Source: Methanosarcina sp. MTP4 (GTDB lineage Archaea; Halobacteriota; Methanosarcinia; Methanosarcinales; Methanosarcinaceae). Taken from it: a DNA stretch of 64,000 nucleotides. Positions 22,482-53,154 of this stretch are shown here, in pieces. The notes under the pieces were generated by a model, which worked only from the letters and a program-made list of their open reading frames with translations, was not told the DNA's origin and searched no databases. Location of the stretch: NCBI RefSeq assembly GCF_000970045.1, contig NZ_CP009505.1:1116001-1180000 (forward strand), in the 5' to 3' direction. Each line of letters starts with the position of its first letter. Position 1 is the first letter of the stretch. The position numbers were made by a program, and so were the translations under genes.

Positions 22482-24182
22482 ATGCTGACTATTGAAGATT
22501 GCGATTTCACAACCCATAAATTTTGTCAACTCTGTGAGGCAATATCCAGCACCTACCCCACAGTAACGATGAATGAATATCTGAATAACAAGCATCCAGA
22601 GCGTTTCATATTAATGCGCCACGATGTTGACAGGATGCCGGGAAACTCTCTAACGACTGCAAAGATTGAACACGAACTCGGCATAAGAGCAACATACTAT
22701 TTCAGATCATGTAAAAGTGTGTTCAAACCTGATATCATATGCAAGATCAGGGACATGGGCCATGAAATCGGCTATCATTACGAGACCTTGAGTGAGGCAA
22801 ACGGAAATTCCGAAAAGGCTATCGACATTTTCCGGTCCCATCTGGATGATTTCAGACAGATTTGCGAGGTAAAAACGATCTCAATGCACGGAAGACCCCT
22901 GTCAAAATACAATAACCTCAACCTCTGGAATAACCATGATTTCAGGGACTTCGGAATAATCGGGGAAGCCTACCTCTCAGCAGGAGATGATCTCAACTAC
23001 CTCTCCGATACCGGAAGAACATGGAGCTTCGGAAGCAATTTAAGGGATTATATTCCCGGTAAAAATGAACAGGTCTTTGCGAATACAACTGCGGATCTTA
23101 TAGAGTTGATAAAAAATGAAGAATATAATAATTTTTATATATTAACTCATCCGGAGAGATGGTCTTCAAGTATTTCTGGATGGGGCTTATATTATTCAGC
23201 GGATCTTGCAGTTAATATCGGGAAGAAGATTTTGATGAAACGTAATAGTGAGAGCCAGGGTATGAGGAGGATAAGAAATAATAGTTTGTCTATTACAGTC
23301 GACGTTGAAGACTGGTACCATATTCCGTCGGTTTCTGGTTCTGCCTTTTCGGTTTACAAAGATGTAAATGAATTTTTTGAAAAATGGAATGATAGGTATG
23401 ACTACTTGAGTGAACCTACAAAAAGAATACTGGATATTCTGGATGAATTTAACATAACTGCCACATTTTTTGTTGTTGCCGATATCGCAGAACATTACCC
23501 GGGACTCATTGAATTAATTTCTGAAAGAGGGCATGAAATTGCATGTCATGGAGCGCATCATACATGCAGTATCGATCCAAAGACAAAAAAACCTCTGATG
23601 AGTGTTGAAGAATTTGAAACAAGTACCCTGGAGGCAAAGAAAATACTTGAAAGGATCTCCGGACAGGAAGTAATTGGGTACCGGGCACCAAATGCAATGG
23701 TAACAGGATGGATGCTTGACTCACTTGAAAATATCGGATTCAAGTACGATTCATCAGTGTCCGTAAATTCGCTGTATAATAAATCAGATTCTTCTTTGAA
23801 AGGTGTTTCCTCTGTCCCTTATTATCCATCTAAAGGGTGCCTGGAACCTGCCGAAAGCAGGAATTTTATTGAATTCCCCTGGGCCTATTATAATATGGGG
23901 GTTAAGGTCCCCAGTTCGGGAGGACCAATGCTGAGATTCCTTGGTTCTCATTTTATATTCAAAGGGCTGAAGCAGAGTTTGAACAGAGGCCATACGATAT
24001 TTTATTTTCATCCAATTGATATTTCTAATGAGAAATTTCCATCTATTGGAAATGGTAGACCTTTATACTGGATTCTGAAAGGAAAAATAGTTGAAAAAAG
24101 AATTCGGCACGTATTAAAAAAGTTAGACAATGTTAAGAAAGTTCCTTTAAGAGATCTGCTAGGGAATCATCATGGAATTTGA
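22482..24182 (+). CDS. Two-domain polysaccharide deacetylase fusion
   Basis: 566 residues starting at the ATG at 22482, just after GGTGATCT. Residues 1 to about 255 are a deacetylase-like NodB-fold domain (ILMRHDVDR, GHEIGYHYE, SMHGRPLSKY, LTHPERW), closely similar to the separate protein at 26788. Residues about 265-566 form a second NodB domain of the type linked to exopolysaccharide loci (DUF3473): ITVDVEDWYH, ITATFFVVADIAEHYPGLI, GHEIACHGAHH, IGYRAPN, and C-terminal FYFHPIDI. MRRIRNNS near 262 looks like the start of a once separate protein. Both domains keep catalytic Asp and His motifs. The family removes acetyl groups from GlcNAc-type sugars. The 3' end overlaps the next gene by 11 bases. 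Confidence 0.88.
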   Translation: MLTIEDCDFTTHKFCQLCEAISSTYPTVTMNEYLNNKHPERFILMRHDVDRMPGNSLTTAKIEHELGIRATYYFRSCKSVFKPDIICKIRDMGHEIGYHYETLSEANGNSEKAIDIFRSHLDDFRQICEVKTISMHGRPLSKYNNLNLWNNHDFRDFGIIGEAYLSAGDDLNYLSDTGRTWSFGSNLRDYIPGKNEQVFANTTADLIELIKNEEYNNFYILTHPERWSSSISGWGLYYSADLAVNIGKKILMKRNSESQGMRRIRNNSLSITVDVEDWYHIPSVSGSAFSVYKDVNEFFEKWNDRYDYLSEPTKRILDILDEFNITATFFVVADIAEHYPGLIELISERGHEIACHGAHHTCSIDPKTKKPLMSVEEFETSTLEAKKILERISGQEVIGYRAPNAMVTGWMLDSLENIGFKYDSSVSVNSLYNKSDSSLKGVSSVPYYPSKGCLEPAESRNFIEFPWAYYNMGVKVPSSGGPMLRFLGSHFIFKGLKQSLNRGHTIFYFHPIDISNEKFPSIGNGRPLYWILKGKIVEKRIRHVLKKLDNVKKVPLRDLLGNHHGI

Positions 24183-26787: not shown

Positions 26788-27564
26788 ATGCTAAATATTC
26801 ACAATCTTGATTTTACACTTGATAAATTCTATAAACTATGTTCTACTATCACAGAAAACTATACAACCATCACCGTGGGAGAATACGTGACCTCAGGTAA
26901 TAAGTATCCAGAGCGTTTTGTCCTGATGCGTCATGATGTGGATGGACGGGCCGAGACCGCGTTAGACACCGCACGTATAGAAAAGGAACTTGGGATACAG
27001 GCAACTTACTACTTCAGAACTCGCAATAATGTTTTTGTTCCTGAAATCATACAGGAAATCGAGAGAATGGGGCATGAGGTAGGGTATCATTATGAGGTCT
27101 TGAGCACTGCAAGGGGTGACCATGAAAAAGCCATCAAATTATTTGAAGATGATGTGGATAAATTCAGAAGCATCTGCAACCTAAAAACAATTTGTATGCA
27201 TGGGTCCGTGTTATCAAAATACGATAATCGTGATCTCTGGAAATCCTATGATTTCAGGGACTTTGGACTTATTGGAGAGGCCTATTTATCTGCAGGGAAA
27301 AACCTCAATTATTTTACTGATACGGGAAGAGGGTGGAACTCAAAAAATAACCTGCGAGATTTTATTCCCGGTAAAAATGAGCAGATCTCTGCTAATACGA
27401 CTGATGAGCTTATCAGGTTGATCAAGAGAAATAAAATCAGTAACTTTTATATTTCACTGCATCCGAGTCGATGGACCTCAAATAGCATTTATTGGGGCTT
27501 GTTCTGGTTAGAGGATCTTGTATTTAATTCGGGGAAGAAGGTTTTGCTGGTGGTGAGGAAATGA
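26788..27564 (+). CDS. Polysaccharide deacetylase-like protein (single domain)
   Basis: 258 residues, collinear with the first half of the 566-residue fusion at 22482. Shared motifs are FVLMRHDVDG (metal-binding Asp), IQATYYFRTR, MGHEVGYHYE, CMHGSVLSKYDN, DTGRGWNSKNNLRDFIPGKNEQ and a closing SLHPSRW. The metal-binding His pair normally seen as H-x3-H is represented by HEVGYH, so activity is plausible but the exact triad is unclear. It overlaps the DUF354 gene by ATGA. A role in trimming acetyl groups from a lipid-linked or secreted glycan is inferred from the neighbours. Confidence 0.83.
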   Translation: MLNIHNLDFTLDKFYKLCSTITENYTTITVGEYVTSGNKYPERFVLMRHDVDGRAETALDTARIEKELGIQATYYFRTRNNVFVPEIIQEIERMGHEVGYHYEVLSTARGDHEKAIKLFEDDVDKFRSICNLKTICMHGSVLSKYDNRDLWKSYDFRDFGLIGEAYLSAGKNLNYFTDTGRGWNSKNNLRDFIPGKNEQISANTTDELIRLIKRNKISNFYISLHPSRWTSNSIYWGLFWLEDLVFNSGKKVLLVVRK

Positions 27565-28643
27565 GGATACTTTTCAATATTTGTCATCCGGCTCAAGTTC
27601 ATTTATTTAAGTATGTCATCAGGGGTTTAGAGAATAAAGGACATGAATGCAAGATTACAGCAATTGATAAGGATGTTTCTTTGAATTTGCTGGATGCTTA
27701 TGGTTTTGATTATGAAGTTGTCGGGTCTGCAAGGTCAGGGTTATTTTCTAAAGCGGTTGAACTGATCGAAATTGATAAGCGAGTATATAATATAGCAAAG
27801 TATTTTAAACCGGATATCCTGGTAGGGGGTTCCGGGAATGCCTACAGTGCTCATATTGGAAAATTGATTGGAAAACCTTCTATTATTTTTGAGGATTCCG
27901 AAAAAGGGACAATTGAACATCTTCTGACAAATCCTTTTGCAACTGTTATTTGCACTACATCTTCATTCAAAAAGGAACTCGGGGCAAAACAGATTTCATT
28001 CGATGGCTACAAGGAGTTGGCATACCTCCATCCCAATCGCTTTCATCCAAAACAGGCAGTACTTGATGAGCTGGGTTTTACCGGGGAAGATACTTTCATA
28101 ATTTTAAGATTTGTTGCGTGGGATGCGGATCATGATATCGGCCATCAGGGCATACAAAATAAAATAGAGTTTGTAAAAGAACTTGAAAAATACGGGCGTG
28201 TGTTAATCACTTCTGAAGAAAAACTGGGTTCTGAACTGGAAAAATACAGGGTTTCGGTTTCACCGGAAAAACTTCATGATTTACTATACTATACGCAAAT
28301 GCTGGTGGGCGATAGTCAGACAATGACGACCGAAGCTGCAGTTTTAGGGGTTCCCGCAATACGCTGTAATTCTTTTGTAGGAAACAATGATATGTCGAAT
28401 TTTATAGAGCTTGAGCAAAAGTATAATCTTATTTTCAATTATAGTGACTCTGGAGAAGCGTTAAAAAAAGCAGTTGAGCTTATAAATAAACCAGAGCGTA
28501 AAGAAGAATGGGATAAGAAAAGAGAAAGGTTATTGAAAGAAAAAATAGATGTTACAGCATTCATGACATGGTTCATTGAAAGTTATCCTGATAGTTTTAA
28601 GGAAATGAAAGAAAATCCGGATTTCCAATATAATTTTAGATAA
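27561..28643 (+). CDS. DUF354-family glycosyltransferase-like protein
   Basis: 360 residues starting in an ATGA overlap. It has the GT-B-like layout of DUF354: an N-terminal Rossmann part beginning MRILFNICHPAQVHLFK, a GGSGNAYSAHIGKLIGKP loop, IFEDSEKGTIEHLL, and a C-terminal half with LISEE-like VLITSEE, then LVGDSQTMTTEAAVLGVPAI. The last motif resembles the UDP-sugar pocket of UDP-GlcNAc 2-epimerase and MurG-type enzymes. The family is common in archaeal surface glycan clusters; its reaction is not established. It is followed nine bases later by the epimerase gene. Confidence 0.85.
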   Translation: MRILFNICHPAQVHLFKYVIRGLENKGHECKITAIDKDVSLNLLDAYGFDYEVVGSARSGLFSKAVELIEIDKRVYNIAKYFKPDILVGGSGNAYSAHIGKLIGKPSIIFEDSEKGTIEHLLTNPFATVICTTSSFKKELGAKQISFDGYKELAYLHPNRFHPKQAVLDELGFTGEDTFIILRFVAWDADHDIGHQGIQNKIEFVKELEKYGRVLITSEEKLGSELEKYRVSVSPEKLHDLLYYTQMLVGDSQTMTTEAAVLGVPAIRCNSFVGNNDMSNFIELEQKYNLIFNYSDSGEALKKAVELINKPERKEEWDKKRERLLKEKIDVTAFMTWFIESYPDSFKEMKENPDFQYNFR

Positions 28644-30192: not shown

Positions 30193-31503
30193 ATGTTCAA
30201 CCTAAAATTGAGCAAAATGATGGAAGATGTCCAGTGGTCGTTTATCAGCCTGGCGACAGCCTCCCTATCACATCTGTTGCTTAGAATCGTGCTCGGCAAA
30301 GAACTGGGGCCCTCGGGACTCGGCCTCTACACCCTGGTCTTTACCATCTACATTTTTGGCATGCACTTTGCAGCGTTCGGTATTGGTGTAGCCCTGACCA
30401 AATACCTTGCCGAATATGATGACGACCTGCCCAGGGTAAAGGGATTTGTTTCATCTGGACTTTTAGGGTCCATAGTAAGCGGGTCTATGATGGGGGTACT
30501 AATGTACCTGCTATCAGGAATTATAGCTATCCAGTTTTTTCACAGTCCCGAAATGGTCGACCTTCTGAAGATCACAGCATTCTGTTTTCCGTTCATAGCC
30601 ATGCAGAAAGCCGTCATTGGGGCTTTGAACGGTCTGCGGAAGATGAAATGGTATGCCGTTGTGAACATCGCTCAGAGTGTATCTGTGATGACCGTGTCAA
30701 TAGTTCTGGTGTTACTGCTGGATTTGGGCGTAAGAGGTGCAGTAATAGGTTTTGTAGCCCCGACAATTTTAGTGGGAATATTATCATTGATAATTATCAG
30801 AGAGTATTTTTCTGCCAACTCGGCAGACATGAATGCAGTCCTTAAAGAAGTGTTCCGGTTCGGGTTCTACATCGTCATTGCAAATTCAATCGGGATGATC
30901 AATGTGCAGATCGACAGCCTGATGGTAGGTCATTTCATGAGTGAGATTGATGTAGGGTACTATGCTGTTGCAATAATCTTTGTAGAGGGGTTAAGATTAA
31001 TTCCCGACTCAGTTCAAAGAATAACAACCCCCGCCATAGCAAATTACTATGGGAAACAGAAATATGAAAACATACACGAACTGATGAAAAATAGCATGTT
31101 AAAAGTTTTAGCAATTACCATATTTATTTCTTTTACACTCATAGTGCTGGGCCAATTTTTGATAGAGGTGTTGTTTAAAGAGGAGTTCCTACCAGCATAC
31201 TATCCTCTCTTGATTCTACTAGTTGGTTATTCCGTATATGCTCCAATTCTTTCAATCAGTGGGGCTCTTGCTGGTATCGGAAAAGTGGCTTTGATGTCCA
31301 AATTATCTTTTATATGTGCTGTGATGAACACAATACTGAACATTCTCCTAATACCGAAATACGGGATAACAGGGGCAGCAATTGCCACATCCATTTCTTT
31401 AATCTTCACAGCGTCATTAAAATTATACTTCATAAAGTTATATATCCCAAAACCTTCAGCCATTATATGGACTGAGGGTCCGGAAAAGGATGTTTTACGT
31501 TAA
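30193..31503 (+). CDS. Polysaccharide flippase (Wzx/MATE-like membrane transporter)
   Basis: 436 residues, mostly hydrophobic, with about twelve predicted transmembrane helices. The N-terminus (WSFISLATASLSHLLLRIVLGKELGPSGLGLYTLVFTI read in parts) is the typical start of polysaccharide_synt proteins. Conserved points include LGPSGLGLY, a mid-protein FGFYIVIANSIGMINVQIDSL motif, and GVGYYAVA-like DVGYYAVAI. These proteins move lipid-linked oligosaccharides across the membrane. It closes the glycan synthesis block and converges with the beta-helix gene at 31614. Confidence 0.88.
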   Translation: MFNLKLSKMMEDVQWSFISLATASLSHLLLRIVLGKELGPSGLGLYTLVFTIYIFGMHFAAFGIGVALTKYLAEYDDDLPRVKGFVSSGLLGSIVSGSMMGVLMYLLSGIIAIQFFHSPEMVDLLKITAFCFPFIAMQKAVIGALNGLRKMKWYAVVNIAQSVSVMTVSIVLVLLLDLGVRGAVIGFVAPTILVGILSLIIIREYFSANSADMNAVLKEVFRFGFYIVIANSIGMINVQIDSLMVGHFMSEIDVGYYAVAIIFVEGLRLIPDSVQRITTPAIANYYGKQKYENIHELMKNSMLKVLAITIFISFTLIVLGQFLIEVLFKEEFLPAYYPLLILLVGYSVYAPILSISGALAGIGKVALMSKLSFICAVMNTILNILLIPKYGITGAAIATSISLIFTASLKLYFIKLYIPKPSAIIWTEGPEKDVLR

Positions 31504-31613: not shown

Positions 31614-33392
31614 TTACCCACTGTTTTCAAAAGAATTGTCTCTGGTTACAGAGTTAGTATTATGGGGTATGATAGAGATTCTGTTTTCTCTGAAGGAATT
31701 TCCTTCGATTAGATGATTGCCCGTATCAAATAATACAACTCCATTGGCACAGCGCACAAAAGTGTTGTTTGTTATAACACTATCACTGTTGGAAAATTCG
31801 ACACCCTTTCGGCAATCATAAAATTCATTGTCATTGACTCTGAAAACTGCAGCTGATGTCGGGTGTGAGTTTACGGCTTCGTCAGCACAATCTCTAAAAA
31901 CATTGTTTGTCACATCAACATTTCTGGTAAAACCATCTGTTGTAACCCCACCTCGGCCTGCAACAACAGCAATGTAGTGTCTGCCCTTTTCCAGAAATGA
32001 ATTGTCTCTTATTACAATATTGTCACAGGCATTTGTTATGGCAATTCCATATCCGGTTCCGTCTTTAAATACCCTTTTAAAGGTACTGCCTTCTACAATA
32101 CAGTCCAAACAATCCCAGAAACTTACCGCACGGTTTCCAAAATCCTCAAATCCGCAATTTGAGATCATGATGTTCGTCACGCCGTAAAAATAGATCGCAG
32201 TTGAACTGGTATCCATGCCGTACCCTATAAAATTAATATTTTCAAAGGAGATATTTTTAAACATTGAGATCTTTCGGACCTGGGCATTCCTGGCTACAGT
32301 ATAGTCATCATACAGTGGGCGGTCAACGGTAATCGTTGAACCTGATATATCGATTATTTCGGCCAGTTCTCCGTTTTTGTAATCATTCCTTTGAAAAGGA
32401 ACTGAGAATTCGTCTGAAATTTTTACATAGTCCCCAACATTTAGGCCCGAAACACTCGACAGCTTAATTTGGGTATCCCCTGAGTTTGCATCACTTGATA
32501 AGGATATGGTTGAAGAAGAATATCCCCCGGTTCCGGTATTAAACGCTGGTGAGCTAATGCAATTAAATACCACTTCATCATTTCCAACGAAGGAGACCTC
32601 GGATTTCAAACGAATTGTACGGTCTATATCATATTCTCCTCTTTCAAAGAGTATGACTCTCCCCTCACTCTCAGCCAGAGCAGCTTCAATTGCGTCCGCA
32701 TCATCGGGGCCGCTATGAATCACAGCACCTTTTTCATTCTCTACAGTGACAACTCCATTTTCTTTGGAGATTTGAACATATGCCGAATCTTCCGGTACAT
32801 TGTAAATTGTCGCGATGTATGGGAACAGCATGCATAAAAAACCTGCAAATAACAGTGGTAACAGGACCTTCATGGCGTCCCTGAATGAAGGGTTCGTGAG
32901 AGGGCTTGCTCCGGCATTAGTATAGGCCACTACTATACCGATGCAGAACACGAAGAACAGAATATGCATAACCAGAAAGGTAAGGATGCTTGTAGGTTTT
33001 TCAAAAAACATCAAATTATAAAATCCATTCGTCATCAATGGAATAAACAGACCTCTACCTGCCTCATCAATTAACCTGAGATCTGCATTCGAATCATCCT
33101 CAGGCCCGTGTCCATCACCGCTAAGAAAGGTGTAGCTTGTAAGGTATCTGAAGGGACTCTTAAATTGCATGCTTTTTAAATCGAAGTTCTCTGCTCCAAA
33201 CTCAAGGGTTTGAGCTACCTGGAAAGTATTCTCGCTGCCGACAATGTTAAAGCCTCCGTTCCCCTCTCCTGCAACGTATACAGGAGACCCCATTGCAGTT
33301 GGTACATGGAAGGTAATATTGGCAGAGATTGCTATCGAAAAAATTAAAATAGCAATGCATCCCTTTCTTTTTGAATCCCCATTAATTCCCAT
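31614..33392 (-). CDS. Membrane-anchored right-handed beta-helix protein, disaggregatase-like without C-terminal repeats
   Basis: 592 residues. The N-terminal 195 residues hold a signal-like helix (about 12-32), an unrecognised extracytoplasmic segment, and two strong transmembrane helices (about 133-155 and 168-190). From about residue 198 the protein aligns with the three neighbouring genes: VQISKENG, RTIRLKSEVSFVGN, then beta-helix rungs (NISFENINF, NCGFEDFG, TGYGIAITNACDNIVI, GRHYIAVVA.RGGVTTDGFTR). It stops at SFENSG, exactly where the others continue with Y.MPELNAVIE, so it lacks the final rungs and the repeats. AAGGGGAT precedes the ATG. It may be a membrane-tethered carbohydrate-active protein or a truncated paralogue. 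Confidence 0.82.
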   Translation of the reverse strand: MGINGDSKRKGCIAILIFSIAISANITFHVPTAMGSPVYVAGEGNGGFNIVGSENTFQVAQTLEFGAENFDLKSMQFKSPFRYLTSYTFLSGDGHGPEDDSNADLRLIDEAGRGLFIPLMTNGFYNLMFFEKPTSILTFLVMHILFFVFCIGIVVAYTNAGASPLTNPSFRDAMKVLLPLLFAGFLCMLFPYIATIYNVPEDSAYVQISKENGVVTVENEKGAVIHSGPDDADAIEAALAESEGRVILFERGEYDIDRTIRLKSEVSFVGNDEVVFNCISSPAFNTGTGGYSSSTISLSSDANSGDTQIKLSSVSGLNVGDYVKISDEFSVPFQRNDYKNGELAEIIDISGSTITVDRPLYDDYTVARNAQVRKISMFKNISFENINFIGYGMDTSSTAIYFYGVTNIMISNCGFEDFGNRAVSFWDCLDCIVEGSTFKRVFKDGTGYGIAITNACDNIVIRDNSFLEKGRHYIAVVAGRGGVTTDGFTRNVDVTNNVFRDCADEAVNSHPTSAAVFRVNDNEFYDCRKGVEFSNSDSVITNNTFVRCANGVVLFDTGNHLIEGNSFRENRISIIPHNTNSVTRDNSFENSG

Positions 33393-33726: not shown

Positions 33727-33941
33727 GCAAATAACAGAGTCCTTCCCATAGTATTGGGGTTGTAAAAACATGAAAAATGAATTAATAGAGATCAAAACCA
33801 TACAACTAAAGGGAATTACAAATGTTCCATGCAGAAAAGCCCCTGCTCTGAAAATTTCGGGGCCGGCATCCCACAGGGTGATGAAATCCTGTAAAATCCA
33901 GTCAGAAACAATTAAACTCAAAAAATCCAGTCAGAAAATGG

Positions 33942-34021
33942 TTGAGATTAAAAACAGTTGAGATTAAAAACAGTTGAGATTAAAAACAGTTGAGATTAAA
34001 AACAGTTTGGATTAAAAACAG
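33942..34021. repeat. Five tandem 16-bp units
   Basis: Units of TTGAGATTAAAAACAG start at 33942, 33958, 33974 and 33990; a fifth (TTTGGATTAAAAACAG) follows at 34006. The array lies just beyond the terminator hairpin of the next minus-strand gene. Surrounding sequence resembles the 3' flanks of the other two disaggregatase genes, so the array expanded in this copy only. Confidence 0.88.
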
Positions 34022-34038
34022 TTAAACTCAAAAAATTT

Positions 34039-34112: not shown

Positions 34113-36443
34113 TCACTCTTTTTCCGAGATGGTTAGCACAGGCCTCTGGTTTCCGTTTTCATAGTCACTGCTGCAGAAAGCGATGTAGTTTCCGCTTTCT
34201 GTGCGGGCTTTGATAAGGAATCCCGTATTCTCGTACTCACCACTTACGTACTCTTTCACAAGGCCGGTTACATCAAGTTCATGGTAGCTGTTGTCAGGGA
34301 CGTCGCTTCCATTGAGAGTTATCGTTGCGTAGGGAGTGCTGCCCTGGGAGACATTATTCTGGTCGTACCAGTCACCTCCCGGATGAACCCATGGGGTGTC
34401 AAGGTCACTGCTGTTCCAGGTGACGTAATCTGGGTTCCAGGCTTCAGGCCTGTAGATTTCGACAACCGTGTCAGCAGGCCTTTCCATTCCTTCAGGGTAA
34501 TACCAGAAGAGGGAAAGGGTCGCATTCTCGATCAGTTCAGCATCTTCGTAGTCACTCAGGTCGAAAAGGGCAAGGTCTCTGTACCCTCCGACATCATCTC
34601 TGCCTCCAAGGTCGATATAGGGCTCGTTCTTGAAGACGGTGTCAGGAGAACCTTCACGGAGACGGGAATCTTCCACTATCCTGAGAGTTCCCGGGCTTCC
34701 CTCCTCATCCATGATGACATTCGAATAATCATCATTAGAGATTGCTGCAGGGGCATCAATGACATTGCGGTCGATAATAATTTCGTCTTTAATTGGAGTT
34801 GTCCTGGAATTTTCAAGGGAAATTCCTACACTGCTAGCCTTGATCTCATTGACACTTATAGAGTGCGGGCCCGCTGCATCAATAACTCTTATCCCTGAAG
34901 AGGAAGGAGAGTTTATCCTGTTGCCTTCGAGGCTAACATCATCGCATCCGCTAAATTCGAGATCCCCGTTCAGGTTGTTATTATTTAACCTAACATTTTT
35001 AGCATAGCCGAATTCCATTGCCATCGTCAGTGGGTCTTCGCAGGTATTGTTGGAGATTTCAATGTTTTCCACGTAAGAACTGCTTGAGCCTACTGAGGAT
35101 ACAATACGGCCGCTGTAGTTTTCGAAGGTATTATTCTCAATTACTGCATTGAGTTCCGGCATGATATACCCGCCGTTGTCAAACACGTTGTTCCTTATTA
35201 TGTTGCTTGTAGCGTGAGGGATAATGGAAATCTTGTTTCCGTTGAAGTAATTACCCTCAATAACGTGGTTGCCGGTGGATAAGGTAACTAAGGCATTCTT
35301 ACAGCGATAAAACTTATTGTCTTTTACGATGCTGTCAGTTCTGGCTAGTTCTACACCCTTTCTGGAATCGTAGATTTCATTGCCAATTACTCTGAAAATC
35401 GGAGATGAAGTCGGGTGTGAGTTTACAGCTTCGTCATCACAATCTCTGAAAATATTGTCCAGAACATCTACATGCCTGGTAAAGCCGTCAGTTGTGACCC
35501 CTCCCCTGCTGGACACGACAGCAATGTAGTGTCTGCCTTTTTCAAGGAAAGAGTTGTTTTTTATTACGATATTGTCACAGGCATTTGTGATGGCAATTCC
35601 ATATCCTGTTCCGTCTCTGAATATCCTTTTAAAGGTACTGTTTTCTACAGTACAGTCTAAACAATCAAATAAGAGGATCGCACGAGTCCCAAAATCTTCA
35701 ACTGTACAATTTGAGAACGTAACGTTCTTCACACCATATAAATAGACGGCAGTTGAACTGGTATCCATACCAAATCCTGAAAAACCAATGTTTTCAAAGG
35801 AGATGTTCTGGAACATTGAGATTTCTCTGACCTTCGCATTCCTTGATACGGTATAGCTATCGTACAGCGGGCTGGCAACTGTGATCGTTGTGCCGTTGAT
35901 GGCAACAATCTCTACCAGTTCTCCGTTTTTGTAATCTTTCCCTTCATAGGGAACTGTAAAATCGTCCGAGATTTTTACATGGTCTCCAACATCCAAGCCA
36001 GAAACATCGGACAAACTAATCTGTGTAGCCCCTGAGTTGGCATCACTTGCCACAGATGTCGTTGAAGAGGAATAGCCACCGGTACCTGTAGTAAATCCCG
36101 GAGAGCTAATGCAATCAAATACAACTCCTTCATTTCCAACAAAGGAGATGTCGGATTTTAAACTAATTGTACGGTCTATGGAATACTCCCCATTCTGGAA
36201 GAGTATGACGCCACTATCGAGCTCGTTCAGAGCTGCTTCAATTGCAGCTACATCATCAGCACCTTCATAAATCACAGTGCCATTTTCATTAGTTACCGTG
36301 GCAATTCCATTCTCTTTAGAAATTTGAATATTTGCTAAATCATCTGGTGCAGCTACTGCTGCTGAGCTGATCGCAACCAGCATGAGGGAGCAGATTATTG
36401 AGTAAGAAATTAACTTTCGGGTTCCTAGAATCCTTCTTAACAT
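34113..36443 (-). CDS. Secreted disaggregatase-like beta-helix protein with one C-terminal repeat
   Basis: 776 residues from the ATG at 36443, chosen because GGTGAT lies 5 bases before it; an in-frame ATG at 36467 precedes the binding site. A signal peptide (1 to about 32) ends in AAVAA. The next 40 residues (IQISKENG...) lead into a parallel beta-helix to about residue 580, with repeated N-x-F, N-N-x-F rungs. One disaggregatase-type repeat (about 590-776) starts DSRLREGSPDTV and contains YIDLGGRD..GGYRDL..FDLS, EAWNPDYVTWNS, GGDWYD and SYHELDVT.LVKEYVSGEYENTGFLIKA. Related Methanosarcina proteins disperse cell aggregates by attacking the heteropolysaccharide matrix. The enzymatic residues are not established from sequence. 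Confidence 0.88.
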   Translation of the reverse strand: MLRRILGTRKLISYSIICSLMLVAISSAAVAAPDDLANIQISKENGIATVTNENGTVIYEGADDVAAIEAALNELDSGVILFQNGEYSIDRTISLKSDISFVGNEGVVFDCISSPGFTTGTGGYSSSTTSVASDANSGATQISLSDVSGLDVGDHVKISDDFTVPYEGKDYKNGELVEIVAINGTTITVASPLYDSYTVSRNAKVREISMFQNISFENIGFSGFGMDTSSTAVYLYGVKNVTFSNCTVEDFGTRAILLFDCLDCTVENSTFKRIFRDGTGYGIAITNACDNIVIKNNSFLEKGRHYIAVVSSRGGVTTDGFTRHVDVLDNIFRDCDDEAVNSHPTSSPIFRVIGNEIYDSRKGVELARTDSIVKDNKFYRCKNALVTLSTGNHVIEGNYFNGNKISIIPHATSNIIRNNVFDNGGYIMPELNAVIENNTFENYSGRIVSSVGSSSSYVENIEISNNTCEDPLTMAMEFGYAKNVRLNNNNLNGDLEFSGCDDVSLEGNRINSPSSSGIRVIDAAGPHSISVNEIKASSVGISLENSRTTPIKDEIIIDRNVIDAPAAISNDDYSNVIMDEEGSPGTLRIVEDSRLREGSPDTVFKNEPYIDLGGRDDVGGYRDLALFDLSDYEDAELIENATLSLFWYYPEGMERPADTVVEIYRPEAWNPDYVTWNSSDLDTPWVHPGGDWYDQNNVSQGSTPYATITLNGSDVPDNSYHELDVTGLVKEYVSGEYENTGFLIKARTESGNYIAFCSSDYENGNQRPVLTISEKE

Positions 36444-37060
36444 TGTATCACCTTTGGGGTTGGACAATCTAGGGAATTTTGGGTATAAGGTAGATTGAAT
36501 TTTTTGGGGTTATTTTGCTAAGTTTACATAAATTTTAAAAATTTAATATAAACTGCATTTAATATTTTTTCCGCCCCTCTCTCCACTTCTTTTTTGTCGG
36601 GAACATCATTTGCAGAGAGCTTCCGCTCTGAATATTTTCAGTCCTGGAAAATATCAGTCGTACGGAAAGGGTGGGAACGAAGTCGATGCTTCTGTTTTTT
36701 TGTAATGAAAATTTGTCATAAATTATAGGATATTCATGGTTTCTTTTTTAGTTTAATGCCTCCTGTTCGAATGAGTATAGGTGTTCAGCCTTAGCAACTC
36801 ACCAAACAAGATTCTATTTATCTTTTAGTTAAATTTCCTTAGTGAACTCTGGGCATTTATGCGACCCTATTATAAAATATTTTTGGTATTATGTTAATTT
36901 TTTTTATAGTTTTCAAATATATTTCACAGAGATGCCCCTTTTGATATCCGGGAAATGAAGAAGGGGTGGAATGAAATCCATAATGGGAGTAGACATAATG
37001 AACCATAAAAATAGAGGAGAGTAAGCTCGATAAAAGTAGATCCGGATGAACATACAAAGA
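36444..37060 (-). promoter_or_regulatory. Conserved leader/promoter block of the 776-residue gene
   Basis: This region aligns with those before the other two paralogues. Shared landmarks from the gene outward are TCACCTT..GGTTGGAC.ATCTAGG, GGGAACA.CA followed by an AGAG.GC..TCGCT-type inverted repeat, CCTCCT near 36758, and an AT block (36868-36895) containing TATTATAAAATATTTTTGGT. Read on the minus strand the AT block is the best TATA candidate, giving a leader of about 400 bases. A 3' extension near 36940-37050 (GTAGATCCGGATGAA) is also shared. Confidence 0.55.
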
Positions 37061-37495
37061 AACGTATCCCGTAGTTTTTTCGCTGAATAAGGTCCTTTAA
37101 AGGCTTATTTCCTGGATCTGAAATCAAAGAAAGATCAGGTCTCAAAATCCGGATTATGGCCCAAAAGAAGGAGATATATTGAACTGCGATTATGGCCCCG
37201 ATACTTATGTTGCACCAAGTTTTGGAATTGGTTCGAAAGAATTCCTTCCATAGAAGGGGCTCGTAAAAACACGAAACATGAATGGCGAGTGATCAAAACC
37301 ATGAAAAAACGTACCTGAAATTCGTTGAATGGCAGGCTCAAATAAATGAAAGTACACAGTAATTTCAGCTAAATAAGGGAATTACAAGCATCGAATGCAA
37401 AACAGCTCCTTTCCGGGTGTATTTCAGTCCGGGTGTTCGGGAAAATAGTCATGTCCTGGTAAGTCCGGTCAGAATCAAGTAAAATCAAAAAATTT

Positions 37496-37529
37496 CCTGC
37501 GCAGAAAGGATTTTTTCTTTCTGCGCGGG
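37496..37529 (-). terminator. Terminator hairpin of the 971-residue beta-helix gene
   Basis: The CCTGCGCAGAAAG stem with its CTTTCTGCGCGGG partner and downstream T-run is the same as after the neighbouring paralogue; the loop is T-rich. It lies 39 bases beyond the stop codon. Confidence 0.78.
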
Positions 37530-37568
37530 TATTTTAAGCTTTTTTACGAACCCGATACTGAGGAAAAC

Positions 37569-40484
37569 TTATGCTTTTTCCAAGATGGCCAGCACAGGCC
37601 TCTGGTTTTTATCTTCATATTCGCTGCTGCAGAAAGCGATGTAGTTTTCACTTTCCGTGCTGGCTTTGATCAGGAATCCCGTATTTTCGTATTCGCCGCC
37701 CACGTACTCTTTCACAAGTTCGGTTACGTCAAGTTCATGGTAGCTGTTGTCAGGGAAGTCACTTCCATTGATGGTTATCGTTGCGTAGGGAGTGCTGCCC
37801 TGGGAGGCATTATTCCGGTCATACCAGTCTCCTCCGGCATTCACCCAGGGGGTGTTAAGGTCCCTGCTGTTCCAGGTGACGTAGTCGGGGTTCCAGGCTT
37901 CCGGCCTGTAGATTTCGACAACTGTGTCCTCGGGCCTTTCTATTCCGGCCGGGTAGTACCAGAAGAGGGAAAGGGCTGCACTTTCGATACTTTCAGCATC
38001 GTCTAATTCACTTAAGTCGAACATGAAAAGGTCTCTGTACCCGCCGACTCCTTCCCGGCCTCCCAGGTCGAGATAACGGACGTCATTGAAGACCGTATCA
38101 GGGGTGCCTTCACGGAGGCGGCTGTCCTGAAGGTTGTTAAGGACGTGAACTACAGGTTCTGGTTTCAGTTCTACATCGAGTTTCGGGATGGATTCCGTTA
38201 TTCCGCAGTCACTGCTGTAGAAAGCGACGTAGTTTCCGCTTTCCGTGCGGGCTTTCATCAGGAATCCCGTATTCTCGTACTCGCCACCCACATACTCTTT
38301 CACAAGTTCGGTTACGTCAAGTTCATGGTAGCTGTTGTCAGGGAAGTCACTTCCATTGATGGTTATCGTTGCGTAGGGGGTACTGCCCTGGGAGGCATTA
38401 TTCCGGTCATACCAGTCTCCTCCGGCATTCACCCAGGGGGTGTTAAGGTCCCTGCTGTTCCAGGTGACGTAGTCGGGGTTCCAAGCCTCAGGCCTGTAAA
38501 TTTCGACAATTGTGTCCTCGGGTCTTTCTCTTCCATCCGGGCAGTACCAGAAGAGGGAAAGGGTCGCATTTTCGATCAGTTCGGCATCTTCGTATTCGCT
38601 TAAGTCGAACATGACAAGATCCCTGTACCCGCCGACTCCGTCTCTGCCTCCCAGGTCGAGATAACGGACGTCATTGTAAACCGTGTCAGGTGAGGCTTCA
38701 CGGAGGCGGGAATCCTGCACTCCCCAAAGTGGGATCTCAGGAGCGCCTTCTTCTACGATGACACTTGAATAGTCGTCATTAGAATATGCTTTGGGGGCAT
38801 CAATGGCATTGCGTCCGATGAGAATCTCATTTTTGATTAGAGATGTTCCTGTATTTTCAAGGGAAATTCCTACACTATCGGCTTTGATCTCATTATCCGT
38901 TATAGTGTGTTCCCCTCTTGCATTAATAACTCTAATTCCAGAAGATGCGGGGGAATTTATCCTGTTGCCATCGATTTGTACATCATTGCACCTGCTAAAT
39001 TCAAGGTGCCCTCTCAGGTTATTGTTACTTAAGGACACATTTTTGGCATAGCTTAATTTCATTGCCATTGTCAGTGGGTCTTCACATACGTTATTGGTGA
39101 TTTCAATGTTTTGCAGGTTGGAACTGCTTGAGCCGGATGCGTATATGATATACCCTGAATAATTCCTGAAAGTATTACTTTCAATTACGGCATTGAGTTC
39201 CGGCATGATATAGCCGCCGTTGTCAAACACATTGTTCCTTATTATGTTGCTTGTCGCGTGAGGAATAATGGAGATCCTATTCCCGTTGAAGTAATTGTTC
39301 TCAATCACGTGGTTGCCGGTGCTTAATGTAACCAGGGCATTCCCACAGCGATAAAATTTATTGTCTTTTACGATGCTGTCAGTTCTGGCGAGTTCTACAC
39401 CCTTTCTGGAATCGTAGAATTCATTGCCAATAACTCTGAAAATCGGAGATGAAGTCGGGTGTGAGTTTACAGCTTCGTCAGCACAATCTCTGAAAATATT
39501 GTCCAGAACATCTACATGCCGGGTAAAGCCGTCAGTTGTAACTCCTCCCCTGCTGGACACGACAGCAATGTAGTGCCTGCCTTTTTCAAGGAAAGAGTTG
39601 TTTTTTATTACGATATTGTCACAGGCATTTGTTATGGCAATTCCATACCCTGTCCCGTCTTTGAATATCCTTTTAAAGGTGCTGTTTTCTACAGTACAGT
39701 CCAAACAATCAAATAAACTGATCGCACGGGTGCCAAAATCTTCAATTCCACAATTTGAGAACGTAACGTTCTTCGTGGCATAGAAATAGATTGCAGTAGA
39801 ACTGGTGCCCATTCCTTTGCCTACAAAATCAATGTTTTCAAACCTGATGTTTTCAAGCATTGAGATTTCTCGGACCTTGGCATTCCTGGATGTGGTATAG
39901 CTATCGTAGAGGGGGCTGTCAATTGTGACCGTTGAACCGTCGATGGCAACTATTTTTGCCAGCTCGCCGTTTTTATAGCTTCTTCCTTCATAGGAAACTG
40001 TGAAATCGTCTGAAATTTTTATATAGTTCCCAACATTCAAGCCAGAAACACTGGACAACTTAATCTGTGTAGTCCCTGAGTTGGCGTTACTTGCCACCGG
40101 GATTGTTGAAGAGGAATAGCCACCGGTACCGGTAGTAAATCCCGGGGAGCTAATGCAGTCAAATACCACTCCTTCTTCTCCGATGAAGGTTATATCTGAT
40201 TTTAAACGAAGTGTGCGGTCGATATTATATTCGCCTTTCTGGAAGGAGATGACACCGCTATCGATTGCCTTCATAGCCGCTTCAATAGCGTCTGCATCGT
40301 CTGAACCTTTATATACAACAGTACCATCTTCGTTTGTTACCGTAACAGTTCCACTAACTTTGGATACTTGAACATTTGCTAAATCACCTGATGCTGCTAA
40401 TGCTGCTGAGCTTGTAGCAAGCAGCATTAAAAAGCAAATTGAAATCGAAATCAGCTTTCGGGTTCCTGGCTTCAGTTTTAACAT
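37569..40484 (-). CDS. Secreted disaggregatase-like beta-helix protein with two C-terminal repeats
   Basis: 971 residues. AGGTGAT lies 5 bases before the ATG at 40484. A signal peptide (MLKLKPGTRKLISIS, hydrophobic core, then AALAA) is followed by a parallel beta-helix to about 580. Two repeats of about 185 residues follow (about 590-770 and 785-971), each beginning LQDSRLREG or VQDSRLREA and holding RYLDLGGR..VGGYRDL. A linker KLDVELKPEPVV joins them. Its N-terminal 450 residues are almost identical to those of the 1190-residue neighbour. Secretion and the disaggregatase relationship suggest action on the cell matrix. Confidence 0.9.
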   Translation of the reverse strand: MLKLKPGTRKLISISICFLMLLATSSAALAASGDLANVQVSKVSGTVTVTNEDGTVVYKGSDDADAIEAAMKAIDSGVISFQKGEYNIDRTLRLKSDITFIGEEGVVFDCISSPGFTTGTGGYSSSTIPVASNANSGTTQIKLSSVSGLNVGNYIKISDDFTVSYEGRSYKNGELAKIVAIDGSTVTIDSPLYDSYTTSRNAKVREISMLENIRFENIDFVGKGMGTSSTAIYFYATKNVTFSNCGIEDFGTRAISLFDCLDCTVENSTFKRIFKDGTGYGIAITNACDNIVIKNNSFLEKGRHYIAVVSSRGGVTTDGFTRHVDVLDNIFRDCADEAVNSHPTSSPIFRVIGNEFYDSRKGVELARTDSIVKDNKFYRCGNALVTLSTGNHVIENNYFNGNRISIIPHATSNIIRNNVFDNGGYIMPELNAVIESNTFRNYSGYIIYASGSSSSNLQNIEITNNVCEDPLTMAMKLSYAKNVSLSNNNLRGHLEFSRCNDVQIDGNRINSPASSGIRVINARGEHTITDNEIKADSVGISLENTGTSLIKNEILIGRNAIDAPKAYSNDDYSSVIVEEGAPEIPLWGVQDSRLREASPDTVYNDVRYLDLGGRDGVGGYRDLVMFDLSEYEDAELIENATLSLFWYCPDGRERPEDTIVEIYRPEAWNPDYVTWNSRDLNTPWVNAGGDWYDRNNASQGSTPYATITINGSDFPDNSYHELDVTELVKEYVGGEYENTGFLMKARTESGNYVAFYSSDCGITESIPKLDVELKPEPVVHVLNNLQDSRLREGTPDTVFNDVRYLDLGGREGVGGYRDLFMFDLSELDDAESIESAALSLFWYYPAGIERPEDTVVEIYRPEAWNPDYVTWNSRDLNTPWVNAGGDWYDRNNASQGSTPYATITINGSDFPDNSYHELDVTELVKEYVGGEYENTGFLIKASTESENYIAFCSSEYEDKNQRPVLAILEKA

Positions 40485-41075
40485 TTTATCACCTTGGGTT
40501 GGACTATCTAGGGATTTTTGGATCTAAAGTAGACCGATTCTTAGAGGGTATTTTCACAATTTCACGTGAGATTGGAAAACTCCCTGGGAATTGATTGTAA
40601 TATTTTTCCGACTCTCGCTCTACCCTCATTTATGCGGGGAACAGCACATTCAGAGAGCGTTCGCTCCTGGTTCATTTACTCTTCAAAATTGCGAATAACG
40701 CAGAAAGTTCGGAAATGAAGCCGAAGCTTCTGTTTTTGTAGTTAGAATATGTTATGAATTATAGGACAATTATATTCCCTTTTAGTTCAACACCTCCTGT
40801 CTGATGAATCCGGGCCTTTAGCCTGGTCAATTCATCAAATGAAGTTCCAATTAATTTTTAGTTATATTTCCTGAGTCAACTTTGAACATTTACACAAGTT
40901 TATTATAAAATATTTTTGGTATTATGTTAAAATTTTTTATAGATATCCAATATATTTTTGTAAGATTTATATTCTTCCCGGAAAAACGAAGAAAGAGGGC
41001 TAAAATCCAGCATGTAAGTAGGCATAAGGAACCATAGGAAAAAGAGGGAAAGTAAAATTGATAAAAGTAGATCCG
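40485..41075 (-). promoter_or_regulatory. Conserved leader/promoter block of the 971-residue gene
   Basis: The same landmark order as the block before the 776-residue gene is present: the TTGGACTATCTAGG element next to the ribosome binding site, GCGGGGAACAGCAC, the AGAGAGCGTTCGCTC inverted repeat, CACCTCCTGTCTGATGAATC, and TATTATAAAATATTTTTGGT at about 40901-40920. Sequence identity with the block before the 1190-residue gene is clearly lower than between the two coding regions. Confidence 0.55.
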
Positions 41076-41291
41076 GACGAATATAAATAAGAAATTCAGG
41101 CAGAATTTCTTAGCTGGGAAAATTGTAGAAAATTATTCCCTGGATACGGAATCAAAAACTATCGGCAAAGCTCCTTTTCAGGTATATTTCAGTAATGTCA
41201 CCCATGTGGAGTTGTCAGGTCTTAACAAATGCTGCCAAAAACGGTTATACTCAAAAAATGCTGCCAAAAACTATTAAAATTAAAAAAATTT

Positions 41292-41324
41292 CCTGCGCAG
41301 AAAGGATTTTTCCTTCTGCGCGGG
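41292..41324 (-). terminator. Terminator hairpin of the 1190-residue beta-helix gene
   Basis: CCTGCGCAGAAGG-type stem (CCTGCGCAGAAAGG with CCTTCTGCGCGGG) followed on the minus strand by AAATTTTTTT. It lies 39 bases after the stop. A short duplication of ATGCTGCCAAAAAC just beyond it (41229-41275) is private to this copy. Confidence 0.78.
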
Positions 41325-41363
41325 TATTTTAAGCTTTTTTACGAACCCGATACTGAGGAAAAC

Positions 41364-44300
41364 TTATGCTTTTTCCGATACAGTCATCACAGGTTTCTGG
41401 TTTTCGTCTTCATAGTCGCTGCTGCAGAAGGCGATGTAGTTTCCGCTTTCTGTGCGGGCTTTGACCAGGAATCCCGTATTTTCGTATTCGCCGCTTACGT
41501 ACGCTTTCACAAGTTCGGTTACATCAAACTCATGGTAGCTGTTGTCTGGGAAGTCACTTCCCTTAATGGTTATTGTTGCGTACGGGGTGCTGCCCTGAGA
41601 GACATCATTCAGATCATACCAGTCTCCGCCGGCATTCACCCAGGGGGTGTTAAGGTCCCTGCTGTTCCAGGTGGCGTAGTCGGGGTTCCAGGCTTCCGGC
41701 CTGTAGATTTCGACAATTGTGTCTTCGGGCCTTTCTATTCCGGCCGGGTAGTACCAGAAAAGGGAGATGGCCGCACTTTCGATACTTTCAGCATCGTCTA
41801 ATTCACTTAAGTCGAACAGGACTAGGTCTCTGTACCCGCCGACTCCGTCCCTGCCTCCAAGGTCAAGATAACGGACGTCATTGTATACTCTGTCAGGAGA
41901 GCCCTCACGAAGCCGGCTGTCCTGAAGGTTGTTAAGGACGTGAACTACAGGTTCTGGTTTCAGTTCTACATCGAGTTTCGGGATGGATTCCGTTATTCCG
42001 CAGTCACTGCTGTAGAAAGCCATGTAGTTTCCGCTTTCCGTGCGGGCTTTTATCAGGAATCCCGTATTCTCGTACTCGCCGCTCACGTACTCTTTCACAA
42101 GTTCGGTTACGTCAAGTTCATGGTAGCTGTTGTCAGGAACATCACTGCCCTTGATGGTAATCGTTGCGTAGGGGATACTGCCCTGGGAGGCATTATTCTG
42201 GTCATACCAGTCTCCGCCGGCATTCGCCCAGGGAGTGTTAAGGTCCCTGCTGTTCCAGGTGACATAGTCGGGGTTCCAGGCTTCAGGCCTGTATATTTCG
42301 ACAACTGTGTCCTCGGGCCTTTCTATTGCTTCAGGGTAGTACCAGAAGAGGGAAAGGGTAGCATTCTCGATACTTTCAGCATTGTCCAATTCACTTAAGT
42401 TGAACAGGACCAGGTCTCTGTACCCGCCGACTCCGTCTCTGCCTCCAAGGTCGATATAACGAACGTCATTGTATACCGTGTCAGGAGAGCCTTCACGGAG
42501 GCGGTTGTCCTGAAGGTTGCTCAGGACGAGAGCTTCATCAGGTGTATCTCCAGACTCAGGTGTATCTCCAGACTCGGGTTTCAGTTCTACATCGAGTTTC
42601 GGGGTGGATTCCGTTATTCCGCAGTCACTGCTGTAGAAAGCGACGTAGTTTCCGCTTTCCGTGCGGGCTTTTATCAGGAATCCCGTATTCTCGTACTCGC
42701 CGCTCACGTACTCTTTCACAAGTTCGGTTACGTCAAGTTCATGGTAGCTGTTGTCAGGAACATCACTGCCCTTGATGGTAATCGTTGCGTAGGGGATACT
42801 GCCCTGGGAGGCATTATTCCGGTCATACCAGTCTCCGCCGGCATTCGCCCAGGGAGTGTTAAGGTCCCTGCTGTTCCAGGTCACGTAGTAGGGGTTCCAG
42901 GCTTCAGGCCTGTAAATTTCGACAATTGTGTCCTCGGACCTTTCCGCTCCTTCGGGGTAGTACCAGAAAAGGGAAAGGGTCGCATTTTCGATCAGCTCGG
43001 CATCTTCGTATTCGCTTAAGTCGAAAATGACAAGGTCTCTGTATGCGCCGACTTCGTCTCTGCCTCCAAGGTCGAGATAACTAACGTCATTGTATACCGT
43101 GTCAGGAGAGCCTTCACGAAGGCGGGAATCCTGTACTCCTACCAGAGTTGTCGGAGTGTCCGAAGCCCCTGGTGTAGAATCTCCGATTTCAGGAGTTCCT
43201 CCTTCTACGATGACATTTGAATAGTCGTCATTAGAATATGCTTTAGGGGCATCGACGGCGTTACGCGCGATGAGAATCTTTTCATTAATCAATGATGTGC
43301 CGGTGTTTTCAAGGGAAATTCCTACACTGTCAGCTTTAAACTCATTATCTGTTATTGTGTAGGGACCCTTTGCATCAATAACCCTGACCCCAGAAGAGGC
43401 AGGAGAGTTTATCCTGTTGCCGTCGATTTCTACATTGTCACAGGCTCTAAATTCAGGATACCCTCTCAGGTCATTGTTATACAATTTAACATTTTTAGCA
43501 TAGCTTAATTTCATTGCCAGTGTAAGGGGGTCTTCACACAGGTTGTTTGAAATTTCAATGTTTTGCAGGTAGGAACTGCTTGAGCCGGATGCGTATATGA
43601 TATACCCTGAATAATTCCTGAAAGTATTACTTTCAATTACGGCATTGAGTTCCGGCATGATATAGCCGCCGTTGTCAAACACATTGTTCCTTATTATGTT
43701 GCTTGTCGCGTGAGGAATAATGGAGATCCTATTCCCGTTGAAGTAATTGTTCTCAATCACGTGGTTGCCGGTGCTTAATGTAACCAGGGCATTCCCACAG
43801 CGATAAAATTTATTGTCTTTTACGATGCTGTCAGTTCTGGCGAGTTCTACACCCTTTCTGGAATCGTAGAATTCATTGCCAATAACTCTGAAAATCGGAG
43901 ATGAAGTCGGGTGTGAGTTTACAGCTTCGTCGGCGCAATCTCTGAAAATATTGTCCAGAACATCTACATGCCGGGTAAAGCCGTCAGTTGTGACTCCTCC
44001 CCTGCTGGACACGACAGCAATGTAGTGCCTGCCTTTTTCAAGGAAAGAGTTGTTTTTTATTACGATATTGTCACAGGCATTTGTTATGGCAATTCCATAC
44101 CCTGTCCCGTCTTTGAATATCCTTTTAAAGGTGCTGTTTTCTACAGTACAGTCTAAACAATCAAATAAACTGATCGCACGGGTGCCAAAATCTTCAATTC
44201 CACAATTTGAGAACGTAACGTTCTTCGTTGCATAGAAATAGATTGCAGTAGAACTGGTGTCCATTCCTTTCCCTACAAAATCAATGTTTTCAAACCTGAT

Positions 44301-46270: not shown

Positions 46271-46696
46271 TTAAACGCTTTCTTTTTCTTCTTTTTCACC
46301 TTCCCCTTCTTCTCCCTTTTCCGCACGGTGTTTATGGAGAGCCATCTCTATATTGCTGTGCAGGTCTTCTTCCTTGAAAGGCTTTGAGATATAGCCTGCA
46401 GGTTCGGTCATTTTGGCCCTTTCCAGGGTTTCGCTGTCCGTGTAGGCGGTAAGGTAGATTACGGGTATCCCAAAGCGGGCTTTGATCTCCCTTGCTGCTT
46501 CGATCCCGTCCATTTCTCCTTTTAACATGATGTCCATCAAAACCAGGTCAGCACCTGTAAGCTCCGCCTTCCGGATTGCTTCCTCCCCTGAAGCTGCGGT
46601 GCTTGGGACGGTATACCCAAGATTCTTTAACTTGTTTCTGATATTCAGGGCTACTATGTTCTGGTCTTCAACAACCAGAATCTTTGCTTTTCCCAT
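46271..46696 (-). CDS. Single-domain response regulator (receiver only), copy 1
   Basis: 141 residues from the ATG at 46696, which has GGGGGTAA 7 bases before it; an in-frame ATG at 46720 is less well placed. The receiver fold has an acidic ED pair in [12 protein letters not shown], the phospho-acceptor Asp in VLMDIM, the switch Thr in LTAYTD and the Lys in ISKPF. There is no output domain, so it should act through protein contact or as a phosphate relay. The tail is Glu/Lys-rich. It is about 88% identical to the regulator at 52717. It lies 60 bases behind the 811-residue kinase gene and is probably co-transcribed with it. Confidence 0.93.
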
Positions 46697-46756
46697 TTTG
46701 TTACCCCCGTTTTCTTCCATTGCTGTTAGCTTTGAATCGGTTAATTGCCATTTTGG

Positions 46757-49192: not shown

Positions 49193-49343
49193 ATCCCCTT
49201 GTCACGAATTTATACTTGTATCTTTATATTCTCCTAAAATATGTAATCATTTTTAGAATATTTAAAATAAGTAGCTTACGGGCATAGAGCCTGTTTGAGT
49301 CCGGTTATTGCCCCCACATTACCCGACTGATAGGCTGCTAATT

Positions 49344-52553: not shown

Positions 52554-52716
52554 CCATTTTCCTCCTTTTTTCTTTCATTTCCCTGGTTTTCGGGGCTGAC
52601 AACAAAATGACTCCCAGGTTTCTTTTTTCCCGTTTTTGTCCTCTAAGAAGTTTTTACTTCGTTAAGTCAAGTTCAAATAAGCTTCAAAACAGCTTTAAAA
52701 TATAGGGCAGGGGATT

Positions 52717-53121: not shown

Positions 53122-53154
53122 ATTTCCCCTTCTTATTCATACTCTGGTCCCGGA

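Follow-up and report, generated by a model that had tools for sequence, protein, structure and literature searches.

To our knowledge, tailspike-type polysaccharide depolymerases have been described chiefly in phages, with a few from polysaccharide loci of bacteria, and among the papers listed by a literature search none dealt, by title, with archaeal tailspike-type lyases. WceF of Pantoea stewartii is a tailspike-like enzyme encoded in a bacterial polysaccharide cluster; as described in PMC7949094, it is a full-length, trimeric hydrolase. In Vibrio cholerae, the biofilm polysaccharide lyase RbmB is presumed to act on the cell's own matrix (PMC11637428). Methanochondroitin forms the capsule of some Methanosarcina, and a 2025 review describes its biosynthesis genes as not identified (PMC12369344).

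We analyzed a stretch of 64,000 nucleotides (hereafter the window) from the single 4.21-Mb contig of an archaeon deposited as Methanosarcina sp. MTP4. A gene on its minus strand (31614..33392, read from 33392 to 31614; 592-aa open frame) is a real, conserved, genus-level fusion of three parts, taken from pieces of three surface-sugar genes, and is referred to here as the chimera. Homology of the parts together with hydropathy supports the original prediction of a domain fusion that yielded a putatively membrane-tethered relative of a secreted enzyme. Alongside its anatomy, the relatives of each part, its conservation in four genomes, its selection pattern and the different core type in one relative, all of which were observed, we consider it an even prospect that the gene encodes a membrane-anchored polysaccharide-cleaving protein, of lyase type by homology, which would work extracellularly on polysaccharide of the cell's own surface; its topology, chemistry, substrate, role and order of fusion events are what we infer.

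Like the phage proteins LKA1 gp49 (4ru4) and AP22 gp54 (4y9v), the chimera has a beta-helix by profile, a putative insertion region at the same place and a candidate equivalent of Arg459. Unlike them, it lies in an archaeal polysaccharide locus, lacks particle-binding and C-terminal jellyroll domains, and carries a membrane helix pair. With WceF, compared through the fold list (6tgf), it shares being a cell's own tailspike-like protein encoded among polysaccharide genes (PMC7949094), whereas the chimera is a truncated, apparently membrane-anchored archaeal fusion. The disaggregatase-type proteins of Methanosarcina (PF08480, PF06848) appear to be the source group of residues 1 to about 122, and the neighbors of the chimera carry Disaggr_repeat; the chimera itself differs in matching neither PF08480 Disaggr_assoc nor PF06848 Disaggr_repeat at E 1, whereas P0002, a neighbor, has one PF06848 match (6.8e-84).

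Gene neighborhood and sources of the three parts

Upstream of the chimera and on the same strand lie three long secreted relatives with a common beta-helix: P0002 (34113..36467; 784 aa, one Disaggr_repeat; a TTG start is listed, and the ATG at 36443 is also possible), P0003 (37569..40484; 971 aa) and P0004 (41364..44936; 1190 aa), the last two having two and three DNRLRE domains, respectively, by domain search. Past the point where the chimera ends, these neighbors continue for about 150 more beta-helix residues, followed by one, two or three Disaggr_repeat/DNRLRE domains. The three tandem lyases (34113-44936) thus step from one to three DNRLRE domains, and the beta-helices of P0003 and P0004 are 99% identical. 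Between the chimera and P0002, at 33941-34034, lies a tandem array of the 16-base unit GTTGAGATTAAAAACA (5.2 copies, 97% matches). Beside the lyases, a run on the minus strand (46271-62132) encodes four large PAS-type sensor-kinase-like proteins (753-2088 aa) and two small response-regulator-like genes, names read from the letters and not from a family search.

The genes facing the chimera are surface-polysaccharide genes, the nearest being a flippase on the plus strand (30193..31503; PF01943, E 1.2e-26). A DUF354 gene of the same locus (27561..28643, plus strand) was recognized by family search. Farther along, a 566-aa frame at 22482-24182 apparently consists of two deacetylase-type halves, the first of which resembles a separate gene at 26788-27564.

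Within the chimera, residues 1 to about 122 (33027..33392) comprise a signal-peptide-like segment and the first coils, and match the N-termini of Disaggr_assoc beta-helix proteins. Residues 130-199 (32796..33005) form a helix pair that resembles, by sequence matches and hydropathy, the start of the YdjM (PF04307) membrane protein, and residues 203-592 with the stop codon (31614..32786) form a beta-helix of the tailspike-lyase type; all three parts are read on the minus strand. Hydropathy assigned membrane-spanning hydrophobic segments to all four orthologues, and three segments precede the join: residues 12-30 (33303..33359, minus strand), which are signal-peptide-like, 136-154, and 176-194 (173-191 in the relative G001). 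The two transmembrane helices first described in this region are to be corrected to these three hydrophobic segments.

That residues 1-195 have no counterpart in the three neighboring proteins and then join their beta-helix was borne out. The join, which had been placed at an abrupt start at VQISKENG, is real and lies just after the signal-peptide-like segment of P0002; the similarity begins a few residues earlier (PEDSA, against PDDLA in P0002). No Pfam or NCBIfam model matched residues 1-195 at E 1, and the outer segment of this region had been called unknown; a homologue search found two kinds of relatives for the region outside the window, Disaggr_assoc N-termini and the YdjM helix pair. 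In the 111 genomes of the family, residues 1 to about 122 resemble the N-termini of many beta-helix proteins from genus g13, which we infer to be Methanosarcina; the control genome, M. acetivorans, has matches to the same families. The best matches, in G080 (E 8.7e-19) and G095 (E 1.9e-18), extend to the first residue (MSISGNSK and MGISWDSK against MGINGDSK in the chimera), and PF08480 is present in both proteins.

Residues 130-199 resemble the first helix pair of a membrane protein of 194 aa that scores above the PF04307 cut-off. A match of this type is found in the chimera's own genome (G000:C1:920066, E 1.9e-7), and the best among the matches listed reaches 2.3e-11. The similarity is confined to the first helix pair, the remainder of YdjM being absent from the chimera, and PF04307 matched neither the chimera nor residues 1-201 at E 1. 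The suggestion of a partial copy captured by another membrane gene therefore holds for the YdjM helix pair; the start of the gene would trace to a third source, namely a beta-helix protein of the disaggregatase-associated kind. Both N-terminal parts together were absent outside the genus among the matches listed in the 111 genomes. The same genome contains a second polysaccharide-type locus (L048, G000:C1:912000-928000), whose flippase is a paralogue (73% identity) and which also has YdjM, two acyltransferase-like genes and one dehydrogenase-like gene, some of these names being taken from the letters alone.

Gene order adds to this picture. The G080 locus runs flippase (+), a gene of 663 aa (+), the Disaggr_assoc protein whose N-terminus matches that of the chimera (-), a disaggregatase-type protein (-) and YdjM (+), against flippase (+), chimera (-) and lyase (-) in the window. 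The chimera thus sits where G080 has its Disaggr_assoc gene, and in this sister genus that locus contains the sources of both N-terminal parts. The matching protein of G095, like that of G080, also lies just downstream of a disaggregatase-type protein, as does the chimera in the window. Counted from the matches listed, PF08480 occurs in all 30 of the g13 genomes listed (G074-G103) and, over the whole family set, in 49 of 111, compared with none of the four genomes of the chimera's genus, while PF06848 occurs in all four of these and in 46 of 111 overall. With this distribution, residues 1-122 look like the leftover of a PF08480-type family that is gone from the genus.

Conservation and selection within the genus

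The layout, the joins and the end of the chimera are identical in the four genomes of the genus examined, three of which are metagenome assemblies. The first 201 residues matched those of the other three genomes at E 1.9e-88, 5.8e-83 and 1.1e-82. A recent fusion, in the sense of an event in one genome, is therefore unsupported. The original prediction had pointed to orthologues with the same layout in distant genera as the sign of an old family; among the matches listed in the 111 family genomes, none with this layout lay outside the genus, and when GTDB r220 contigs were scanned with the N-terminal alignment, three loci came back, all of them the relatives G001-G003. The co-location of the chimera with other lyases is not constant, because the contig that carries it in G003 has no other lyase match. 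The only long lyase found in G003 (L083:603-2981) is split by an in-frame TGA into frames of 467 and 319 aa.

Substitution rates were estimated with our own Nei-Gojobori script and Jukes-Cantor correction; dN and dS values that approach or exceed 1 are approximate. Purifying selection acts on the beta-helix (omega 0.17, 0.12-0.24; from the three genomes that share a core type), and residues 1-199 are looser yet kept open (omega 0.52, 0.37-0.71; four genomes), with residues 36-125 evolving fast (0.59, 0.39-0.92; four genomes). Six long lyases share 151 invariant columns; any one chimera retains 134-136 of them, and 121 are retained in every chimera.

These values bear on whether the gene is a functionless, decaying remnant of a fusion. 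The chimera is shorter than its neighbors, and the raised N-terminal omega, with an upper bound of 0.92 in residues 36-125, would fit decay. The frame is nevertheless open in all four genomes, none of 4,000 neutral simulations (star approximation, without indels) kept residues 1-199 stop-free across the four lineages, and the low omega of the beta-helix also argues against decay, which we regard as highly improbable and disfavor.

The beta-helix core and its variant in a relative

By profile search, the beta-helix belongs with the tailspike-type polysaccharide lyases: residues 226-573 match the tailspike family phrog_7458 (E 3.4e-27), the chimera alone matches 4ru4 (E 6.7e-8) and 4y9v (E 2.4e-6), and an alignment of the lyases used as a sequence profile matches LKA1 gp49 at E 1.2e-11 and AP22 gp54 at E 7e-11. 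A putative insertion domain at residues 295-374 (32271..32510, minus strand) gives a borderline match to PF24149 (K1-lyase_Rider; 27.1 bits against a cut-off of 27.0) and is modeled with low confidence. It is at or over the cut-off in two of the four chimeras (27.1 bits also in L080), just below it in one (26.4 in L081) and unmatched at E 0.1 in one (L079).

R471 and H472 (31977..31982, minus strand) are invariant in 11/11 rows of alignment A2. R471 aligns with Arg459 of LKA1 gp49, taking LKA1 chain numbering as residue minus 167, and His494, Asp497 and His499 of LKA1 lie beyond the aligned stretch. The stretch E505-H510 (31863..31880, minus strand), in which E505, N508 and H510 are invariant in all 11 rows, is a candidate catalytic site, proposed from conservation and spacing. 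R471, H472, E505 and H510 are retained in all four chimeras.

The structure of the truncated beta-helix was predicted, as had been proposed. AlphaFold models were built from 11 and 7 sequences, and that of the chimera, of the beta-helix class, has low overall confidence (mean pLDDT 57), residues 380-590 being the part that is chiefly well modeled. VIA-align returned many beta-helix proteins at Z 20-23, which speaks to fold and not to function or kinship; this applies to RbmB (9ozl, Z 22.2), whose likeness lies in fold class and in a presumed role on the cell's own matrix. In Foldseek, the long neighbor's model has 4y9v and 4ru4 as its top two matches, while these rank 24 and 40 for the chimera's model behind the adhesin PfbA (best, E 1.3e-6) and epimerases.

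The match to PfbA fits a second reading, in which the beta-helix has ceased to be an enzyme and, held at the membrane, binds sugar or acts as an adhesin to retain capsule or matrix on the cell. The chimera also lacks the C-terminal turns and CBM-like domains, and WceF, itself a tailspike-like bacterial enzyme, shows lectin-like agglutination with its polysaccharide (PMC7949094). Set against this are the strong purifying selection and the retention of the four site residues in every chimera, with the qualification that conservation fits binding and cleavage alike. We regard this reading as rather unlikely, and continue with a cleaving protein as the preferred one.

Relatives of the beta-helix with at least 49% identity over most of its length occur in 5 of the 111 genomes, namely the four of the genus and G018 (genus g6). 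Any match at all is found in 22 of the 111, the remainder being at 24-31% identity or over about 70 residues. G018 has a 1154-aa long form and a 420-aa short form; the latter has a signal-peptide-like start, ends nearly where the chimera ends and lies directly beside a related flippase (62% identity). Neither PF08480 nor PF06848 was matched in G018. This plainly secreted short lyase (L082:6305-9067) beside a related flippase may represent an older layout of the locus. A clade of short lyases uniting the four chimeras with the 420-aa form was rejected (AU p 1.2e-10). We also rejected a viral source for the beta-helix, as no virus with a close copy was found: none of 28 matched stretches among the viral contigs encodes a relative by two peptide patterns, and tblastn against 50,697 phage records returned just two records, from one phage at 24% identity. 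Queries with P0004 and one Disaggr_assoc protein found no solved disaggregatase structure by sequence.

The phylogenetic tree of the beta-helix included 21 rows; for g13, 13 matches led to eight gathered proteins, of which six were used (G081 and G084 were dropped). The beta-helix of the G001 chimera groups with the two long lyases of the same genome (support 96/99), apart from the other three chimeras, and a single clade of the four chimera beta-helices was rejected (AU p 2.5e-97). Its N-terminal module is 71% identical to that of the window's chimera. Between these two, dS is 0.14-0.40 by segment in the N-terminal part and 1.5 in the beta-helix, and differences per base rise from 0.18 to 0.35 in residues 232-592 (lnL gain 32), the step being modest because the N-terminal part evolves fast too. 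Chimera-to-long dS within each genome is 0.85-1.08, compared with a mean of 0.34 among chimera N-terminal modules, so that a different beta-helix was probably installed in at least one chimera while its N-terminus stayed. For chimera and long lyases of a single genome, we rejected recent gene conversion: in the window, G001 and G002 no near-identical stretch was seen, and 20-residue windows gave 0.08-0.47 differences per base.

The long lyases show a sharper pattern. Compared with its G001 counterpart, P0002 shows 0.38 differences per base within residues 120-442 and 0.06 elsewhere (gain 196), and P0004 shows 0.39 within residues 111-419 and 0.10 elsewhere (gain 175), so the flanks of G001's two long lyases are nearly identical to those in the window. 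In the comparison with G002, the top segments are weak and fall at other places (0.14 vs 0.08 and 0.06; gains 11 and 28). All three lyase-type genes found in G001 have the other core type, P0003 having no counterpart there. Of the four polysaccharide genes compared between G001 and the window, the DUF354 gene is of another type (dS 2.8), while the deacetylase, DegT and FemAB genes have dS of 0.14-0.22. Beside the G001 chimera lies a UDP-sugar-dehydrogenase-like gene, named from its letters and not by family search, where the window has the flippase.

The last residue of the chimera corresponds to residue 433 of P0002 and residue 424 of P0004, 9 and 5 residues from the core edges at 442 and 419. 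Given this proximity, its end looks like a module boundary. Describing the end as cut off is apt relative to the long neighbors; the end is conserved in all four orthologues, close to the edge of the exchanged core, and together with the 420-aa form of G018 ending nearly there, this argues against a fresh truncation.

Tentatively, and as a minority possibility, we suggest that in this genus the sugar-coat type and the core of every lyase of a cell switch together: a cassette (about residues 120-442 of P0002) would be exchanged or converted among secreted lyases with near-identical flanks, and the tethered fusion would carry such a core, ending at the cassette edge, anchored as an editor of nascent capsule next to the polysaccharide genes. 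The exchange could alternatively be an assembly artefact; lyase core and sugar-coat genes would then not really be linked, and the fusion itself would be unaffected. It was seen in G001 alone, a metagenome-assembled genome whose two long lyases (L039:1436-8505) have the same nucleotide sequence across residues 201-440 and diverge by about 0.2 past that stretch, a type of repeat prone to mis-joining by assemblers; this identity itself may reflect either recent gene conversion or an assembly effect. On the other hand, open frames run across the exchanged part in all three G001 lyase genes, the DUF354 gene, which is not repeated, likewise differs in type, and the core of the G001 chimera is on average about 0.25 per base from the two long cores, which argues against a collapsed copy. 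We consider an artefact distinctly unlikely.

Proposed role and evolutionary route

Under the preferred reading of a tethered cleaving protein, the route would have begun before the split of the genus's four species. Next to a flippase and disaggregatases, a Disaggr_assoc beta-helix gene would have lost its body and gained in its place a YdjM helix pair and, behind it, the start of the mature chain and the core of a tailspike-type lyase. Led by the N-terminal segment, the chain would enter the membrane, the helix pair would run out-in-out and the beta-helix would lie outside. The charge pattern is weakly compatible with this arrangement (net +1 to +2 in loop 155-175, net -7 in segment 31-135). 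Without the last beta-helix turns and the Disaggr_repeat domains, the protein would be kept near its substrate by the anchor.

The association of core type with sugar genes suggests that the substrate is the cell's own polysaccharide, as with WceF. The chemistry may be that of either a lyase or a hydrolase: LKA1 gp49 is a lyase, and KP34gp57 uses two glutamates (PMC10653864). A single-chain cleft is plausible by analogy with phage depolymerases, in which a beta-barrel insertion accompanies intra-chain clefts and C-terminally trimmed forms stay active as monomers, according to PMC10653864; residues 389-584 of LKA1 gp49 are described as active by themselves (PMC5701251). The likely job at the membrane would be trimming, releasing or quality-controlling chains, while the three secreted neighbors may loosen the matrix farther out; this editing or release role is the least supported step.

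An archaeal lineage thus appears to carry a tailspike-type core both on disaggregatase-type secreted proteins and, separately, on an anchor built from neighboring genes. If lyase core and sugar-coat gene do change together, two questions would become testable: which genes determine the type of polysaccharide in these methanogens, and which part of a lyase determines its specificity.
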